Below are positions 6,603 to 21,297 of a stretch of DNA of 24,268 bases, piece by piece. The translations under genes and the position numbers were made by a program. The notes under the pieces are model-generated. The model was given only the letters and a program-made list of their open reading frames with translations, was not told the origin of the DNA and did not search any database. The DNA lies in the IMG/VR virus record IMGVR_UViG_3300012954_000077, positions 1 through 24,268 of that record. The stretch is one strand, 5' to 3'. This DNA is from a virus. Numbering within the stretch: position 1 is the first letter of the stretch; each line of letters starts with the position of its first letter.

Positions 6603-7603
6603 ATTCTGTAATTAAAGATAGTGGAAATGAATTTGCTGGTTTGGTTAGTGAAGGAGTTGCTGCTGGCGACATTACTAACTATGTTGATACTGGGAGTTAC
6701 ATCTTTAACGCCTTGGTTAGTGGTTCGTTGTTTGGAGGTCTTCCTTCCAACAAAGTCACTGCCTTGGCTGGAGAATCGAGCACGGGGAAGACTTTCTTTG
6801 CTCTCAGTGTCGTTCGTAATTTCCTTGATGCTAATCCTACAGGTGGTGTCATTTATTTTGAAACTGAATCCGCCATTTCCCGTGACATGATCGAGTCTCG
6901 TGGCATTGCTGCAGACCGTATGGTGCTATTTCCTGTTGCTACTATCGAAGAGTTCAGGACACAGGCATGTAGGATCCTAGACAAGTATCTCAAGGAACCT
7001 AAAGAAGACAGACAACCTATGATGTTTGTGTTAGACTCATTAGGTATGCTGTCTACTTCTAAAGAGATGGAAGACATCTCTAATGACAAGCAAGTCCGTG
7101 ACATGACCAAGAGTCAGTTAATTAAGGGTGCGTTCCGTGTGCTCACACTTAAACTAGGACAAGCACAGGTGCCCATGATCGTCACCAACCATACATATGA
7201 TGTGATTGGTTCCTATATCCCTCAGAAGGAGATGGGAGGTGGCACAGGTCTGAAGTATGCAGCATCCACCATCATCTATCTTGGTAAAAAGAAAGAGAAA
7301 GATGGTACTGAACTGGTTGGTAACATCATCAAGTGCGAGGCAAAGAAGTCTCGCCTAACCAAAGAAGGTAGCAAAATTGAGACTAGATTATTTTTTGACG
7401 AGCGTGGACTCGACCGCTATTATGGACTATTGGAACTGGGTGAACAGTACGGAGTCTTCAAGCGCGTCGGGAATCGTATCAAATTTGGTGAATCTTCTGT
7501 TTATCCTAAGTCTGTACTCGCTGATCCGCAAAAGTATTTCACCCCCGAAGTAATGGAGAAACTGGAGGAGGCAGCAAAGCAAGAATTTACCTATGGCAAC
7601 TGA
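6590..7603 (+). CDS. uvsX: UvsX, RecA-like recombinase
   Basis: 337 aa. It forms ATP-dependent filaments on single-stranded DNA for strand exchange and recombination-dependent replication. Walker A is GESSTGKT at residues 61-68, the catalytic Glu region YFETES is at 90-95, and Walker B is MMFVLDSLG with D149. DNA-binding loop regions follow ([19 protein letters not shown] and [15 protein letters not shown]). The size is close to T4 UvsX. The start ATG 6590 is inside the preceding micro-ORF; the gene overlaps gp41 by 11 nt, keeping recombinase and helicase translation linked. Confidence 0.97.
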
Positions 7604-8981
7604 GCGTATTGAACAAACCATCTTGCGTAACCTCCTATTCAGTGAGGTTTACTATCGTAAGGTGGTTCCTTTTATTAAAGCAGAATATTTTCAGGAATAT
7701 CATGAGAAAATTGTCTACGAAGAGATTGCTGACTTTGCTTCTAAGTACGACAAAGTTCCTACTCAAGAAGTTCTTTCGATTAATTTACAAAATCGCAACG
7801 ATCTCACAGAGGAGGCATTTCAAAATTCGGTATCGATCGTCAGAGAACTCACAGACGAATGGGTAGACTACGAATGGTTGCTCGATGCCACAGAAAAGTG
7901 GTGTAAAGATAGAGCTATATACATCGCACTCATGCAATCGATCAAAGTTGCAGACGGCGGCGATCCTAAAATTTCACGAGATGCGATACCATCGATACTC
8001 CAAGAAGCATTGGCAGTATCTTTTGATGAACACATTGGACACGACTACATTGACCAAGCAACAGACAGATATGATTTCTACCACAGAAAAGAGGAGAAAG
8101 TTCCCTTTGATTTGGACAAATTCAACTTTATTACCAAAGGTGGTCTCAGTAATAAGACTCTCAACATCGCTCTTGCTGGCACAGGTGTCGGGAAAAGTCT
8201 TTTCATGTGCCACATGGCTAGTGCCGCCCTCTCATCGGGGTACAACGTACTCTACATTACATGTGAAATGGCAGAGGAAAAAATTGCTGAACGAATTGAC
8301 GCAAACCTTCTGAATGTAAGCATCAAGGACATTGTTGATCTACCTGAAGTTCTCTTTACTTCTAAAGTGAATGAGATTGCTAGGAAAACTAGAGGTAAAC
8401 TGATCATCAAAGAATATCCTACTGCTTCTGCACATGTAGGTCACTTCAAAGCATTGCTCAGTGACCTGAAATTGAAGAAAGATTTCAAACCACAACTTAT
8501 TTTTGTGGACTACCTTAATATTTGTGCTAGTGCCAGATATAAAGGTGCTGTTGTAAACTCTTATACTTATGTTAAAGCGATTGCAGAGGAGCTTCGCGGT
8601 CTTGCTGTGGAATGTAATGTACCTATTGTCAGTGCCACTCAGACTACTCGTAGTGGTTATGGCAATAGCGATCCAGATCTTACCGATACTTCTGAGTCTT
8701 TTGGTCTACCTGCTACTGCTGATTTTATGTTTGCCCTTATCTCTACTGAGGAACTTGAACAACAGGGTCGCATCATGGTCAAACAACTTAAAAACAGATA
8801 CAGCGACCTTGTTACCTCACGAAAATTCATGGTGGGAATTGACAGATCGAAAATGAAGCTGTATGATGTTGCGGATGATGCTTCAGATATCAGCATCAAC
8901 GCAGAAGATCCTGGTGAGGACTTCCAACAATTCTCCGAAACACAAACCCGTTTATCTAAATTTGCAGAGTGGAACGTATGA
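7593..8981 (+). CDS. 41: Replicative DNA helicase gp41 (DnaB-like)
   Basis: 462 aa. Hexameric 5'-3' helicase that partners with primase gp61. The N-terminal domain (about 1-150) starts [22 protein letters not shown], like DnaB-type N-domains. The RecA-like motor has Walker A AGTGVGKS (195-202), [15 protein letters not shown] (the DnaB H1a/CEM motif) and Walker [11 protein letters not shown] with D306. An SATQTTRSG motif follows in the H3 region. The length is near T4 gp41 (475 aa). It overlaps uvsX by 11 nt and mazG by ATGA. Confidence 0.97.
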
Positions 8982-9382
8982 CAATTGATTTTAATAGATA
9001 TGAAGAGTTTGTATCGGCAGTCACTTCAGACTGCTCGACAAACTTTGTTGACTTCGCTGATCGTATTGGCGAGTTGGATCGTCAGGGTGCCAATATTGAG
9101 CGCCTTCTTACTAGTGGGGTTGGGATTAATGCTGAAGGTGGTGAGTTTCTTGAAATCGTTAAGAAAATGGTTTTCCAAGGAAAGCCGTGGAACGAGGATA
9201 ACCGTGAGCATCTTATCATTGAGTTGGGTGATATTCTATGGTATGTCGCTCAAGCAACAATGGCACTGGGTGTCAGTTTTGATGAAGTCATTGAGACAAA
9301 TGTAAAAAAACTGGAGAAGCGATACCCAGGTGGGTCCTTTGAAATCAAACGCTCAGAAGTTCGAGCAGCAGGCGACCGTTAA
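8978..9382 (+). CDS. mazG: MazG-like nucleotide pyrophosphohydrolase
   Basis: 134 aa from ATG 8978, chosen because it forms the ATGA junction with gp41; an in-frame GTG at 8969 is less likely. MazG enzymes hydrolyse nucleoside triphosphates to monophosphates and pyrophosphate. The metal-binding helices are visible: E53GGEFLE59 and E82LGD85 (EXXE and EXXD pattern), with NREHLIIELGDILWYV between them. A single MazG domain is present, as is usual for cyanophages, where the enzyme was once linked to ppGpp and is now thought to act mainly on dNTPs. It is the last gene before the terminator hairpin at 9392. Confidence 0.92.
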   Translation: MTIDFNRYEEFVSAVTSDCSTNFVDFADRIGELDRQGANIERLLTSGVGINAEGGEFLEIVKKMVFQGKPWNEDNREHLIIELGDILWYVAQATMALGVSFDEVIETNVKKLEKRYPGGSFEIKRSEVRAAGDR

Positions 9383-9391
9383 ATTAAAAGC

Positions 9392-9425
9392 AACCTCCCT
9401 CTAAATACTTAGATGGGAGGTTTTT
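9392..9425 (+). terminator. Terminator hairpin whose 3' arm is the next gene's Shine-Dalgarno
   Basis: AACCTCCC (9392-9399) pairs with GGGAGGTT (9415-9422), and TCTAA (9400-9404) pairs with TTAGA (9409-9413). There is one bulged T and the loop is ATAC; a TTTTT tract follows. It ends the gp43-mazG unit. The GGGAGG of the 3' arm is also the only Shine-Dalgarno for ATG 9430 (9-nt spacing), so the folded hairpin would block translation of that gene. Confidence 0.82.
9400..9407 (+). promoter_or_regulatory. Candidate T4-type late promoter inside the hairpin
   Basis: TCTAAATA matches the T4 late -10 box TATAAATA at seven of eight positions and lies in the 5' arm and loop of the hairpin. A start about six bases downstream (near 9413) would give a transcript that keeps GGGAGG but lacks the pairing arm. 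Weaker than the exact matches elsewhere in this window. Confidence 0.45.
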
Positions 9426-9429
9426 CTAT

Positions 9430-10575
9430 ATGGCATTCGATAGCATTCCTAAAAACTCTTCTGAGATGAGAGCTCTTGCAGGGAGCAGTATTGATAGAAA
9501 ATACAGAGGACCAATCATACATTTCTATAACCATGTGAAGAAACACTATGGTGTAGAAGATGCGCTTGCATTCAATGCAAAAACAAATGCAGGTAAGACT
9601 GCTAAGTTGATGCGAGCACTAAAAGGAACAGTTGATATTGCACAAGTCAAGAGAAAGGTAGGACTTGATGCAGCATTTAAGATTACTTGGGGTGATGGTA
9701 GTAGAGGAAACCGTGGCACAGGTAACAGAGGTAATTTATTTGAAGACCAATTATTTCAGGGACTGAATGATTGGATAGAAGAGGGTGATTACAGTAGAAA
9801 TCAATACAAAGATTACATCTCTGACTTGATCAAAGATTATGATCTTGAGAATTGTCAGGTGGTTGATGTTGTAGCTGAAGGTGGAGAGAACAAGAGGCGT
9901 CCGTTGACATTTGTTGCTGGTAATTGGAAAGTTGGTGATGCTGATGCAAACAACTATGACATTGGTGCGACAGTAACAGATTTAACACTCAACACTAGAT
10001 GTAAAGGTAAGGATAAAAAGGTGTATTTGTCACTGAAAACTAGTGGCACAACCACCATGTCTAACCTAGGTGTAAAGAAATCATTTCCACAGTCTGAGAT
10101 TGAAACAAATGAAATCAAAACACCTATTGGACTGAAGATACTAGAGACATTTGGCATTGATAATGCTAGATTCTGTGCTGTTTTTAATGAGGCAGCGAAG
10201 GGAACTGTGACCAGTGGTGGTGATGTAAAAAATCCTAGGTATAACAGACAACTATTGCAGGGAATGATCCGTGGTTCTGTTGGTTATGGGTATCACTACA
10301 CCCATAAGCAGGGCACCAAGATTAAAAACTTCCCGATGACTAAGGCAGTGTGCGACAGCGCAACCAGAGTCACCTCAGTCACTGTCCATTATGGTGGTAA
10401 GACTGGTACTGGACAGCGTATTGACATCACAGTCATGACACCTGTCATGGAATTGAAGTTTAACATTCGTGACACTACTGGCAGTCCATACCCATGGCCT
10501 GATAAACTACAGTCAGCATACAAGTTCAAGGACGAAGTGGTGTTCAGTGTTGCTGAGGACGGGTACGAGGACTGA
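9430..10575 (+). CDS. Unknown protein, possible PD-(D/E)XK-like nuclease
   Basis: 381 aa, not recognised with confidence. A possible restriction-fold core runs from about residue 100: helix GNLFEDQLFQGL with E105, then YDIGATVTDLTL with D184, then a strand KVYLSLKTS ending in K203. That gives an E...D...xxK layout like PD-(D/E)XK enzymes, but the usual acidic residue two before the lysine is S201, which weakens the call. A Gly/Arg-rich stretch (GDGSRGNRGTGNRG, about 88-101) sits just before. The Shine-Dalgarno GGGAGG is part of the preceding hairpin. It is joined by TGATG to the KxDG protein, followed by the NMNAT-like protein, so a nucleic-acid processing role is suggested by context. Confidence 0.6.
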   Translation: MAFDSIPKNSSEMRALAGSSIDRKYRGPIIHFYNHVKKHYGVEDALAFNAKTNAGKTAKLMRALKGTVDIAQVKRKVGLDAAFKITWGDGSRGNRGTGNRGNLFEDQLFQGLNDWIEEGDYSRNQYKDYISDLIKDYDLENCQVVDVVAEGGENKRRPLTFVAGNWKVGDADANNYDIGATVTDLTLNTRCKGKDKKVYLSLKTSGTTTMSNLGVKKSFPQSEIETNEIKTPIGLKILETFGIDNARFCAVFNEAAKGTVTSGGDVKNPRYNRQLLQGMIRGSVGYGYHYTHKQGTKIKNFPMTKAVCDSATRVTSVTVHYGGKTGTGQRIDITVMTPVMELKFNIRDTTGSPYPWPDKLQSAYKFKDEVVFSVAEDGYED

Positions 10576-11777
10576 TGGCAAACATTAAACAACTCAAGCA
10601 CCTAGAGCACCTGGAAGACGAGATGCTGAACTACGGCACTGATGGGTGCATGGCAGCGGTGTCTTTCTTGAAAGAACTTCGTAAGATGCTTGGACACCAA
10701 GAGAGTGCTGGTTTCATGCAGACCAAGTGGGATGGAGCTCCATCTGTGATCTGTGGTATGGATCCACTTGCAGATATATTTTTCGTTGGAACCAAGTCAG
10801 TATTTAACAAAGAAACACCAAAGATTTGCTACTCGGAGGATGATGTTGACTCCATGTATAGTGGAGACCTAGCAGAGAAACTCAAGTTTTCCTACAGATA
10901 CTTCAGTAAACTTGGTATCAAAGGTGTGATCCAGGGAGACTTGTTATACACTAGTGATATCAGACGAGAGACAGTAAATAACGAGAATCTTTATACATTC
11001 AGACCAAACACTATTACATATGGTATTCCTGTAAACCATCCCATAGGACAGGCAGCAGGTAGATCAAAGATTGGTGTGGTATTTCATACACATTATGTTG
11101 GAACCGACCTGCCTACTATGCAGGCAATGGCAGGTGCTCCAATTGACACATTCAATCAGATACCAGAGGTGTTGGTAGTCAACAATGACACACCTATGGA
11201 TCGTGTTGGATTCTCTCGCGCAGAGATGACTAAGTTTGATAATTATATCGCGAAAATTGAGCGTATGTGTCAGTTGTGTGGTGACTTTCTTGACGAACTG
11301 GTTGGCGCTACTGGCACTACTGGAGACAAGAAGTTTCATATTGCATCCTATCTCAAGCAGTTTTTCAATAATGAAATTAAGAATGCTCGTAGCATCACAA
11401 ATGTTGATGAAGCAATGTACTCCTTGGGAAATTTCTATCATGCAAAGATGAGTAAGGAACTTGCAAAAATCAAGACTCCTGCAAACCTAGTTAAGAAGAG
11501 AAACTTGGTGTATGAGAGTGAGAATTATCTGGTAGATAATGTATACAAGTTCAAGTCTATGCTTGCATTGTACAAAGAACTGCAGGAAGTCAAGCAAATG
11601 GTTATAGATAAACTTGACCACCTGGAAGAGTTCAGGACATATGTCCAGACAGAGAAAGGATACAAGGTCACAACTCCTGAAGGATATGTTCTTCATAAAG
11701 ACGGCAGTATGATTAAGTTTGTCAACCGTTTGGAGTTTGCATACAACAACTTCACTCTTCAGAAGCAATGGCGTTAG
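10575..11777 (+). CDS. KxDG-type nucleotidyltransferase-like protein with long insertion
   Basis: 400 aa. The pieces of a covalent nucleotidyltransferase (DNA/RNA ligase-type) fold are visible. Motif I is MQTKWDGAP, with candidate nucleophile K51 and D53-G54. FFVGTKSVF is about 15 residues on. IQGDLLYT (G121-D122) is motif III-like, IGVVFHTHY is motif IIIa-like, TPEGYVLHK (E369-G370) is motif IV-like, and MIKFVNR (K381) is motif V-like. Between IIIa and IV lie roughly 195 mostly helical residues; typical ligases have far fewer there. No OB domain is obvious at the C-terminus. It overlaps the upstream gene by one base and the NMNAT-like gene by 10 nt. Whether it ligates, caps or adenylylates is unknown; the fold assignment is from motifs only. 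Confidence 0.68.
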   Translation: MANIKQLKHLEHLEDEMLNYGTDGCMAAVSFLKELRKMLGHQESAGFMQTKWDGAPSVICGMDPLADIFFVGTKSVFNKETPKICYSEDDVDSMYSGDLAEKLKFSYRYFSKLGIKGVIQGDLLYTSDIRRETVNNENLYTFRPNTITYGIPVNHPIGQAAGRSKIGVVFHTHYVGTDLPTMQAMAGAPIDTFNQIPEVLVVNNDTPMDRVGFSRAEMTKFDNYIAKIERMCQLCGDFLDELVGATGTTGDKKFHIASYLKQFFNNEIKNARSITNVDEAMYSLGNFYHAKMSKELAKIKTPANLVKKRNLVYESENYLVDNVYKFKSMLALYKELQEVKQMVIDKLDHLEEFRTYVQTEKGYKVTTPEGYVLHKDGSMIKFVNRLEFAYNNFTLQKQWR

Positions 11778-12331
11778 ACGGTAAGAAGTGCTACTTTACA
11801 TTTGGAAGGTTCCAACCACCTACTACAGGACACAAGGAGAACTTTGATGGTGTGAAACGCACCGCAGGATCTTATGACTATCGCATATACATTTCACAAA
11901 CTTTTGACAAGAAGGGAAAGAATCCTCTGCCACCTGATAGAAAATTATTCTATATGAATAAGATGTTTCCCGAACATCGTGGTAAAATATACTCAGGTCC
12001 TAGGGATCCAGTTAGTATTCTGCAGGACTTGATGATGGCAGGGTACGATGAGGTTTGTTTCCTGGTTGGTTCTGATAGAGTCAGTGCCATGCAGTTCCTC
12101 CATAAATATAATGGAAAGGATTTTTCCTTCCGAAAGATAGACATTAAGTCTTCTGGTAGTAGAGACGCCGATGGTGATACCTTCGCTATTTCAGGAACAA
12201 AAATGAGACGCGCTGCATTTGCTGGTGACTTCAAAACTTTTCGTTCTGGTATCCCTAGGGCATTGAATGATAATGATTGTCGCGCTCTGATGTCAGAGAT
12301 CGTGGCAAATTTGCCTAGTAATTTTAAATGA
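11768..12331 (+). CDS. NMNAT/cytidylyltransferase-like nucleotidyltransferase
   Basis: 187 aa. YFTFGRFQPPTTGH at residues 9-22 is the GxFxPxTxGH nucleotide-binding signature of the cytidylyltransferase-like superfamily (TxGH form). FAISGTKMRRA near residue 145 is the ISxTxxR motif. Between them, EVCFLVGSDRV fits the central strand. The nearest familiar enzymes are NadM/NadR-type nicotinamide-nucleotide adenylyltransferases, which make NAD+ from NMN and ATP. Cyanophage homologues are often simply called cytidyltransferases, so the real substrate is open. The 3' end meets the next gene at ATGA. The motifs are intact, so it is probably active. Confidence 0.85.
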   Translation: MALDGKKCYFTFGRFQPPTTGHKENFDGVKRTAGSYDYRIYISQTFDKKGKNPLPPDRKLFYMNKMFPEHRGKIYSGPRDPVSILQDLMMAGYDEVCFLVGSDRVSAMQFLHKYNGKDFSFRKIDIKSSGSRDADGDTFAISGTKMRRAAFAGDFKTFRSGIPRALNDNDCRALMSEIVANLPSNFK

Positions 12332-12540
12332 AAGACTTCAAAAAACTCAGGGAACAAGCAGTCCGTCAAGAGTTTAGACAGACGCCAATGCTCCGTGAAG
12401 GTGACTATGTTATGTCTGCTAGAACAGGAGAGAAAGGAAAAATTCACAGGACGGGTGTTAACTACTGCATCATTGTTACCGAAGGTGGTGACATGTTTCG
12501 TGAGTGGGTAAAGGATGTTCGTCCTATAAATAAACCATAG
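12328..12540 (+). CDS. Small KOW/SH3-like protein
   Basis: 70 aa starting at the ATGA junction with the NMNAT-like gene. The core LREGDYVMSARTGEKGKIHRTG, then NYCIIVTEGGD, has the GD.V....GEKGKI pattern of small KOW/SH3-like barrels that bind RNA or protein. The N-terminus MKDFKKLREQ resembles the leader of the gene at 13250 and, more loosely, the T4 internal-protein capsid targeting sequence. An exact late promoter lies within its last codons. Function not known. Confidence 0.65.
   Translation: MKDFKKLREQAVRQEFRQTPMLREGDYVMSARTGEKGKIHRTGVNYCIIVTEGGDMFREWVKDVRPINKP
12525..12532 (+). promoter_or_regulatory. T4-type late promoter (TATAAATA)
   Basis: Exact TATAAATA, the T4 late -10 box recognised by RNA polymerase with gp55. 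It overlaps the end of the small KOW-like gene and lies 28 nt before ATG 12561. Expected start is about 12538, next to a 10-bp palindrome GAAGATCTTC (12540-12549). Confidence 0.75.
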
Positions 12541-12560: not shown

Positions 12561-13253
12561 ATGGATAAGCAGAGACCTGTAAACAAAGTCGTGCATAATG
12601 ATGCCTACTCTGCATCTCTCATGGAGATGTATACTAACTGGATGGCTGGTGACTGCTTCCAGGGTAGTAATATTCCTGAAGCATTCAACGGAATGGATCC
12701 CCAATCTCACGGTGCTGAGGTAGAAGATATTACTAAGAAGAAGAAAAAGAACGACAAGAAAGAAAAGTCTGTTGCTGAAGAAGTTGTTCTTGAGCGTGAA
12801 GAGATCGAAATTGATGGCGAGACAATCATCATTGAGAAGAAGAAAGGTCTTGATGGTAAGGCATGTTGGAAAGGATACAAGCTTGCAGGAACCAAGAAGA
12901 AAGGTGGTAAGACTGTAGACAACTGTGTTAAAGCAGGTGACGAAGTATCTCATGACGGTGAAGAACTAGCAGAGAAAAAGGGTCTCTATGCCAATATCCA
13001 TGCAAAGAGAAAGCGTGGTGAAGCACCTGCAAAGAAAGGTAGTAAGGACTACCCTGCTGCTGATGCATTTGAAAAGTCTGCGAAGACTGCAAAGAAAGAA
13101 GAAGTAGAGTATACTACTGAGAAGAAGCTCGACCCAGTTGGCAAGGAAGATAAGGACATTGATAATGATGGAGATCATGACAAGTCCGACAAGTATCTTC
13201 TCGCTCGCCGCAAGAAGGTTGGTAAGATCATTGCTATGTCTAAGAAAAAATGA
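12561..13253 (+). CDS. Lysine-rich mosaic protein with EF-hand-like loop, probable head-associated protein
   Basis: 230 aa, highly charged, Lys/Glu-rich. Four parts can be seen. Residues 1-50 are non-repetitive (LMEMYTNWMAGDCFQGSNIP). Residues 94-125 carry GKACWKGYKLAGTKKKGG then DNCV, a two-Cys motif. Residues 139-165 are KKGLYANIHAKRKRGEAPAK followed by a DYP motif. Residues 197-222 are KDIDNDGDHDKSDKYLLARR with D199, D201, D203, D205, D207 and D210 spaced like a calcium-binding EF-hand/dockerin loop. I recall such modules recurring in structural or hypothetical proteins of T4-like phages. A late promoter precedes it; no Shine-Dalgarno is seen. It ends at ATGA with the next gene. Role inferred: DNA-binding or internal head protein. 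Confidence 0.7.
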   Translation: MDKQRPVNKVVHNDAYSASLMEMYTNWMAGDCFQGSNIPEAFNGMDPQSHGAEVEDITKKKKKNDKKEKSVAEEVVLEREEIEIDGETIIIEKKKGLDGKACWKGYKLAGTKKKGGKTVDNCVKAGDEVSHDGEELAEKKGLYANIHAKRKRGEAPAKKGSKDYPAADAFEKSAKTAKKEEVEYTTEKKLDPVGKEDKDIDNDGDHDKSDKYLLARRKKVGKIIAMSKKK

Positions 13254-20483: not shown

Positions 20484-20635
20484 CAGAGTTACCAGAGTGG
20501 AGGAAGAGAGCACTCCAGGACCCGAATCTACCAGAGAAGCAGGTCCAAGTGCTCCTCCACGGTCCCAAGTGTCTGACAGACGCATGGTTCCTTCAAGCAA
20601 TGAGATTCAAATACCTGACCCATGGGAGTAGATGA
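20480..20635 (+). CDS. Micro-protein after NrdB, 51 aa, unknown
   Basis: ATG 20480 forms ATGA with the nrdB stop and TGA 20633-20635 forms ATGA with the next gene. The protein reads MTELPEWRKRALQDPNLPEK, then VLLHGPKCLTDAWFLQAMRF, and is basic with two Trp. It could be one or two helices. The double ATGA coupling and lack of other coding use make it a likely real gene. I recall similar short frames beside cyanophage nrdB. Function unknown. Confidence 0.7.
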   Translation: MTELPEWRKRALQDPNLPEKQVQVLLHGPKCLTDAWFLQAMRFKYLTHGSR

Positions 20636-21297
20636 AACCAAATACCATATTATTTGAGAGTGATCCACCACAAACTCCATACGCACCTGACTATAGGTAT
20701 TTGATATATGAAACATATCACAGTGATGCTATAGACACTGCAAAAATTGCAGAGTTTTTCCTGTCAAAGGAGGAGGAGATTCTTTCTTTGCCAGAGTCTG
20801 ATGCTGGTGAAACTGGATTGCCAACTAAGAGTACGACGAATAGACATAGAAATTATAATGTCTTTCAGTATGAACATGAATGTTCTGAGCTACCCAAACT
20901 TCGTAGAGCAATTAGAAGATCTCATAAACAGTATGGGAAAGAATTGTTTGGTAGTTTCTACAAGTATGACAAGCGTCTATACATTAGATGCTGGGTAAAC
21001 ATTATGAGGAAGGGTCATAAGATCATGCCTCACATTCACTCTACACACCCACACACATATCTCGGTGGACATTTTACTGTAGCATGTGATGATTCTGCTA
21101 CCATATATCTCAATCCAATCAATCAACTACACAATGGTGAGAGATACCAGAGTCATAATGTACCAGGGAAGTTAACACTGTTCCCTAACAATGTCCCACA
21201 CGAGACAACCAGGCATAAATTTGAAGAACCTAGGATCACTATCGCATTTGATTTGACTCCTATCACAGACCCAGGATCGACTCTAGTACCCCTATAA
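20632..21297 (+). CDS. 2OG-Fe(II) oxygenase (third of three)
   Basis: 221 aa. RCWVNIMRKGHKIMPHIHST supplies ligands H134 and H136. FPNNVPHETTRHK supplies H190, and R201 in EPRITIAFDLTP is the likely 2-oxoglutarate anchor. This gives the same G...HxH...H...R plan as the gene at 2011. The first 120 residues are an extension with a glutamate-rich helix (LSKEEEILSLPESD) and RRAIRRSHKQYGKELFG. It is coupled by ATGA to the micro-ORF after nrdB, so it is probably co-expressed with ribonucleotide reductase. The substrate is unknown. A late promoter for the next gene overlaps its stop region. Confidence 0.82.
   Translation: MKPNTILFESDPPQTPYAPDYRYLIYETYHSDAIDTAKIAEFFLSKEEEILSLPESDAGETGLPTKSTTNRHRNYNVFQYEHECSELPKLRRAIRRSHKQYGKELFGSFYKYDKRLYIRCWVNIMRKGHKIMPHIHSTHPHTYLGGHFTVACDDSATIYLNPINQLHNGERYQSHNVPGKLTLFPNNVPHETTRHKFEEPRITIAFDLTPITDPGSTLVPL

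Follow-up and report, generated by a model that had tools for sequence, protein, structure and literature searches.

Chloroviruses carry restriction enzymes in their virions and guard their own DNA by methylation. In phage T4, the internal head proteins and Alt bear an N-terminal capsid-targeting signal, MKTYQEFIAE, in which residues 4, 7, 8 and 10 matter (PMC9026906); the signal is cleaved by gp21, and the internal proteins vary fast between relatives. T4-like cyanophages share a core gene, T4-GC190, whose 'cytidylyltransferase' or NMNAT-like product is a virion protein of S-SM1, S-SCSM1, S-SZBM1 and S-CREM2 and has been treated alone in the papers considered, as a metabolic or structural gene. 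Here we describe a four-gene cassette, P1 to P4, at positions 9430 to 12540 of a 24,268-nucleotide (nt) stretch (IMG/VR record IMGVR_UViG_3300012954_000077, positions 1 to 24,268; hereafter the window), in which a T4-GC190 family member, P3, stands not alone but in a cassette with a ligase-fold protein, P2, and a variable predicted nuclease, P1. The window represents part of the genome of a T4-like cyanophage (Kyanoviridae), with the Synechococcus phages Sf-CH1b and S-RSM4 as its closest sequenced relatives. What is chiefly new is that P1 occupies a hypervariable slot: no other gene of the region is exchanged so readily, and P1 is no fixed partner of its neighbors.

The slot comparison covers the loci that were collected by similarity to P1 and to DUF6267, the Pfam family of P2. 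When locus pairs were binned by the identity of their DUF6267 proteins, P1 was detectably homologous in 95% of pairs at 85% or more, in 42% at 75-85%, in 38% at 65-75%, in 22% at 55-65% and in 17% at 45-55%, and over the same loci the identity of the NMNAT-like protein tracked that of DUF6267 closely. Exchange is apparent in two S-RIM44 isolates, which are 99.4% identical up to 41 nt 5' of P1 and again from position 20718 onward; in between, P1 is of the Syn1 type (99.8%) in one isolate and an unrelated protein of 410 aa in the other, while DUF6267 and the downstream genes are 90.6% identical. The frame around the slot is kept even though its occupants are unrelated to each other: the P1 gene overlaps the start of DUF6267 in 60 of 89 loci, and a large gene lies no more than 130 nt 5' of DUF6267 in 79 of the 89. 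Likewise, the motif [CA]TAAATA occurs within 70 nt 5' of the P1 start in 261 of 277 loci, as against 3.6% of random stretches, at a median position of -29 and in 66 of 71 P1 clusters, often within a terminator-like hairpin. In the window, the corresponding hairpin has a predicted RNA folding energy of -17.5 kcal/mol (z -4.68). We take TATAAATA-like sequences to be T4 late promoters, and the slot motif to be a putative late promoter.

The AlphaFold model of P1 aligned in VIA-align to HinP1I (2fkc) with a Z of 8.6 over 197 aa and a root-mean-square deviation of 4.9, the model itself having a predicted local distance difference test score (pLDDT) of only 78. Further matches were a second HinP1I entry (1ynm, Z 7.3), SwaI (5.2) and HhaI (4.3). 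Residues E105, D184, S201 and K203 are invariant in 18 homologues, so that the possible PD-(D/E)XK core noticed in a sequence-only reading of this DNA appears to be present as a variant: D184 and K203 of the D...(D/E)-x-K pattern are kept, and the (D/E) position is occupied by S201. The invariant E105 may replace the missing acidic residue. We therefore regard P1 as a predicted nuclease with the fold of the type II restriction endonuclease HinP1I and a putative S-x-K active site in place of (D/E/Q)-x-K. Unlike the type II enzymes, it has no adjacent methyltransferase, none having been found beside P1 in the annotated cassettes or in PHROG scans, and for this reason we do not file it as part of a restriction-modification system. 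Some cyanophages encode adenine methylases away from the cassette, and the Dam family (PF05869) was absent from 13 cyanophage genomes.

The D...S-x-K arrangement recurs in the other slot occupants' own alignments, mostly without BLAST similarity to the P1 of the window: three families have it as D259/S312/K314, D236/S284/K286 and D147/S162/K164, and a fourth, a distant relative of the window P1, as D221/S234/K236. A loose search for the pattern found it in 75 of 77 cluster representatives, compared with at most 54 in 200 shuffles. One slot family (L010, L032 and L040) matches PADLOC models of type II restriction enzymes, with a best E of 6.8e-12. A Pfam scan of 55 slot proteins returned no relevant family, searches of PDB sequences with the P1 and P2 profiles gave nothing relevant, and the scans used found no bacterial relatives of two slot types in 85,000 genomes.

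P2 matches Pfam PF19782 (DUF6267) with an E of 3.5e-126, a domain of which we found no mention in the literature searched. In 60 homologues, K51-W-D53-G54, G-T-K74, Q120-G-D122, E369-G-x-V and K381 are invariant or nearly so, those of motifs I, III and IV strictly, and they follow one another as motifs I, Ia-like, III, IV and V do in ligases. The K-x-D-G and ligase motifs read earlier from the sequence are thus borne out, with the qualification that motif V keeps K381 and has V383 at its second lysine. Both halves of the AlphaFold model (pLDDT 87.7) can be aligned to ligases of RNA and of DNA, and all 50 of the 50 entries listed by VIA-align are polynucleotide ligases (Z 5.6-8.0; Naegleria RNA ligase 8.0, T4 RNA ligase 2 (Rnl2) 7.0), mostly ATP-dependent ones. 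P2 shares with the Naegleria enzyme and T4 Rnl2 the nucleotidyltransferase fold, K-x-D-G and the motif IV E-G-x-V; it differs from them in that motifs III and IV are set apart by some 150 inserted residues of helical structure, in the unconserved second lysine of motif V and in having only 19 residues beyond K381, which leave no room for an OB domain, so that P2 is not counted as a DNA ligase. Because of these three differences we keep P2 out of the named ligase families and place it, on its model and motifs, in the covalent nucleotidyltransferase/ligase superfamily, with a predicted sealing activity. Fold comparison of the first two proteins returned a restriction endonuclease and polynucleotide ligases, and so did not go against the sequence-only reading.

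P3 has the intact NMNAT-type motifs that had been claimed for it, GRFQPPTTGH (T-T-G21-H22) and ISGTKMR147, both conserved in 37 homologues. Its orthologues are annotated as T4-GC190, and its match to the NCBIfam NadR model is weak (E 0.0055, far below the cut-off). Judged by its motifs, P3 is probably an NMNAT/NadR-type nucleotidyltransferase, for which other substrates of the superfamily are possible. P4 had been described as a small KOW-like barrel; no KOW family match was found, but a small domain it is, matching positions 208-271 of phrog_395, in which P3 and P4 form a single protein in relatives, and thus homologous to the C-terminal domain of the fused cytidyltransferases. In GenBank, P4 orthologues go under the name of ribonucleotide reductase subunit or NrdB; we found no support for that name, which looks like an annotation error. 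Natural DUF6267-NMNAT fusions occur in three loci (L052, L060 and L061), and in other relatives the P3-type domain shares one chain with a P-loop kinase or with a nucleotidyltransferase of the pol-beta type. Examples are a zeta-toxin/AAA_33-type kinase joined to the NMNAT-like domain in L072, and NMNAT-like domains behind a pol-beta-type (MntA-like) nucleotidyltransferase in L055:7678-9660 and L064:6028-8538. A zeta-toxin/AAA_33 P-loop kinase also lies inside the cassette of pelagiphage HTVC008M (L001:7709-8371), between DUF6267 and the NMNAT-like gene.

Relatives of P3 start with M-K-x-F-x-x-F-[IL]-x-E-A (for instance MKSFLQFISEA and MKKFSAFLNEA in sister phages), which agrees with the T4 signal at residues 4, 7, 8 and 10, although the T4 internal proteins themselves are not nucleases, ligases or NMNATs. 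Scored as N-terminal M-x-x-[FY]-x-x-[FL]-[IL]-x-E, capsid-targeting-like starts were found in 27 of 83 NMNAT-like proteins, 5 of 94 DUF6267 proteins, 1 of 79 P1 proteins and 11 of 701 other open reading frames (ORFs). In S-SZBM1 just three annotated genes have such a start, the cytidyltransferase among them. The P4 of the window begins with MKDFKKLREQ, a degenerate version that keeps F4 and L7 and has R8 instead; MKSFKQFREE, also capsid-targeting-like, begins P6 (13250-13660). Virion detection of the P3 family has been reported for S-SM1, as T4-GC190 (PMC3037559), for S-SCSM1 (PMC9602691), for S-SZBM1 together with the next gene, in the position of the window gene at 12561-13253 (PMC9146016), and for S-CREM2 together with the next two gene products (PMC10665884).

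If P1 is site-specific and has no methylase partner, the phage must be free of its sites, and some genomes are indeed entirely without certain short motifs. GA-N6-TC is absent from the genomes of S-H9-1 and S-MbCM7, the latter under accession KF156338 (L197-L216), each with about 700 sites expected, and other tested spacings are normal. It occurs 0 or 1 times in each of the nine contigs with a P1 sharing 82% identity or more with that of S-MbCM7, in contigs with a P1 sharing 95% or more with that of S-H9-1, and in L081, L082, L229 and L231. It is absent or nearly so in L078 and L217-L224 as well; however it arose, such an absence is striking as a constraint on an entire genome. When P1 proteins are clustered at 80% identity, no cluster is mixed in its GA-N6-TC status; the motif is lost in 5 of the 55 clusters that make up the H9-related family and in 0 of the 58 remaining clusters (p 0.025, counted by cluster), and CTNNAG is lost in 4 of 7 S-SZBM1-type clusters and 1 of 106 others (p 2.7e-5); these p-values overstate the case, because the counts do not separate phylogeny from P1 type and the motifs were picked once the data had been seen. 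For the P1 type of the window, no short motif was lost specifically in its group. CCGG is depleted there (2 sites against 332 expected, and 0 against 16 in the whole window), a loss common to most T4-like cyanophages examined and to many P1 types, S-CAM4 and ACG-2014e excepted. ACGT is scarce in the window (6 against 50) and in Sf-CH1b; contigs with a P1 91% identical to the Sf-CH1b protein show no such scarcity, and ACGT was rejected as a P1-linked motif. Site loss is a lead, though no proof: it tracks some P1 subfamilies, and host restriction is an alternative. That the slot holds diversifying site-specific endonucleases without methylases, the phage being immune through a genome purged of its own site (such as GA-N6-TC for the S-MbCM7/S-H9-1 type), we consider rather unlikely. 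The idea of a virus-delivered, site-specific nuclease acting against host DNA is shared with the chloroviruses, from which the cassette differs in that no partner methylase is seen for P1 and that P1 is presumed, at most, to be packaged.

The features of the cassette are collected in the table below. The four coupled plus-strand genes have exactly the coordinates and joins that were read from the sequence, P2 and P3 overlapping by 10 nt and P3 and P4 by ATGA (4 nt). They are not chance ORFs, as each has a PHROG match (P1 E 6e-111, P2 2e-145, P3 2e-68, P4 4e-34) and P2 also matches Pfam DUF6267. On the 5' side lie the gp41 helicase (7593-8981) and MazG (8969-9382), and on the 3' side genes for a head protein and for lysine-rich proteins. 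The order helicase, (MazG), P1 slot, DUF6267, NMNAT-like gene is repeated across Kyanoviridae, including one pelagiphage and one methylophage, and within this family the cassette genes are not freely separated. Elsewhere in the window there are three 2OG-Fe(II) oxygenase-like genes (704-1222, 2011-2742 and 20632-21297).

Table. Features of the cassette and its upstream region in the window
Feature	Position	Strand	Description
P1	9430-10575	+	381 aa; predicted restriction-endonuclease-fold nuclease (PD-(D/E)XK with S-x-K), occupant of the hypervariable slot; phrog_8438
P2	10575-11777	+	400 aa; DUF6267, predicted ligase-superfamily (covalent nucleotidyltransferase) fold
P3	11768-12331	+	187 aa; probable NMNAT/NadR-type (HIGH superfamily) nucleotidyltransferase; T4-GC190 'cytidylyltransferase' family; phrog_3041/395
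P4	12328-12540	+	70 aa; equals C-terminal part of fused NMNAT-like proteins in relatives; phrog_4808
P1-P2 stop/start overlap TGATG	10573-10577	+	1-nt overlap
Hairpin AACCTCCC/GGGAGGTT and T-run	9392-9425	+	CTAAATA (9401-9407) in loop region, just 5' of P1 start

The reading we favor, at a shade under an even chance, takes the cassette for a kit made late and delivered in part inside the head, with which the phage attacks non-self DNA and protects or resets the cell, steadying the cell or its own DNA at entry or late in infection. The late operon would make an exchangeable, site-recognising and restriction-like P1, a conserved ligase-fold P2 and an NMNAT/NadR-like P3 with the accessory P4, and its products would be delivered in part with the next infection, P1 and P2 being presumed to be packaged too. 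P1 would then cut DNA foreign to the phage, that is, the host chromosome or a competing phage, P2 might seal broken nucleic acid, whether the phage's own or otherwise needed, and P3 might support the pool of nicotinamide adenine dinucleotide (NAD) at entry. The folds, catalytic residues, slot exchange, late-promoter motif and the relatives' capsid-targeting N-termini come from our own analysis, and the virion detections from the work of others; at the least, the NMNAT-like part belongs to a family that is packaged into heads.

A number of observations weigh against such a kit. Foldseek alone gave no significant match for the P1 or the P2 model, and the fold scores are middling, a Z of about 8 being near the level that VIA-align calls common; because of this, the ligase claim for P2 is carried by the list of folds and the agreement of the motifs. 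P1 to P3 of the window lack a capsid-targeting N-terminus, in which P3 differs from the T4 internal proteins, and P1 and DUF6267 are missing from the published virion protein tables of S-SZBM1 and S-CREM2. As for P1 as the cause of site loss, GTAC is absent, with about 570-610 sites expected, from Syn1 (L167-L176) and S-RIM44 (L187-L196, L438), and its loss proved independent of P1, so that it was rejected as a P1-linked motif. S-SZBM1 (L101-L104) lacks several unrelated motifs together (TTCAA/TTGAA, with 0 sites against 250 or more expected, ATTAAT and CGATCG), and S-H9-1 and S-MbCM7 share a further gene cluster, possibly of host-recognition genes. Elimination of sites from phages by host restriction is documented (PMC6286503). 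These observations, like the loss of CCGG across many P1 types, suit the view that P1 is a phage nuclease of a generic or structure-specific kind and that the short sites were lost to host restriction-modification, a view we hold to be quite possible, if somewhat below an even chance. This view has to contend, nevertheless, with the uniformity of GA-N6-TC status within P1 clusters and the skew of CTNNAG loss toward the S-SZBM1 type. Furthermore, S-RSM4 retains its GA-N6-TC sites, and we take S-RSM4 to infect WH7803, as does S-MbCM7.

The sequence-only reading had gone further and suggested a self-contained pathway for the end-processing, repair or capping of nucleic acid, with P3 possibly feeding cofactor to P2; as weighed here, the nuclease, the ligase and the NAD-making enzyme would work one after another. 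The enzyme classes on which it was built hold, and together with the overlaps, the conserved order, the natural DUF6267-NMNAT fusions and the kinase within the HTVC008M cassette they speak for such a pathway. As stated, however, it is unsupported and seems quite improbable: P1 is swapped for unrelated sequences while P2 and P3 stay, the relatives of P3 are virion proteins, and jumbo phages have NMNAT-like genes with no DUF6267 nearby. Nothing was found showing cofactor supply from P3 to P2, the NMN-binding domain of NAD+-dependent ligases not having been searched for. We find it very unlikely that P1 is a free-standing mobile, homing-type endonuclease gene that spreads to this position and serves no function in the cassette; a nuclease fold and sharp exchange between conserved flanks would be expected of one, but the near-constant presence of a large gene before DUF6267, the persistence of overlaps and late promoter over unrelated occupants and the five S-x-K families found in the same place all argue otherwise. 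In a further explanation, P2 would be a ligase that repairs RNA and P3 a factor that restores NAD, both directed against RNA-cleaving or NAD-depleting host defenses, with P1 a separate counter-defense. The best fold matches of P2 are to RNA ligases (Naegleria Rnl, T4 Rnl2 and TbREL1), P3 has a NadR/NMNAT-like domain, and a virion NMNAT has been suggested to act on NAD at entry (PMC9602691). The top matches of P2 include ligases of both kinds, RNA and DNA, no more than about 2 Z units apart, though, and we judge this explanation improbable.

T4-like cyanophages are abundant in the ocean, and the cassette is carried by hundreds of those sequenced; DUF6267 is borne by 467 phage records. The cassette has so far been uncharacterised as a unit, its central gene encoding a domain of unknown function and its first being mostly annotated as hypothetical. 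The pattern of site loss yields predictions that can be checked by simple digest; if the site-purging reading is true, exchange at the slot would alter which DNA a phage can attack, late in infection or upon delivery with the virion. Should the slot prove to be a swappable, restriction-like weapon, it would partly explain the degradation of host DNA or the exclusion of rival phages, and it would open up a large reservoir of new endonucleases and help to say why NMNAT-like proteins recur in the virions of these phages.

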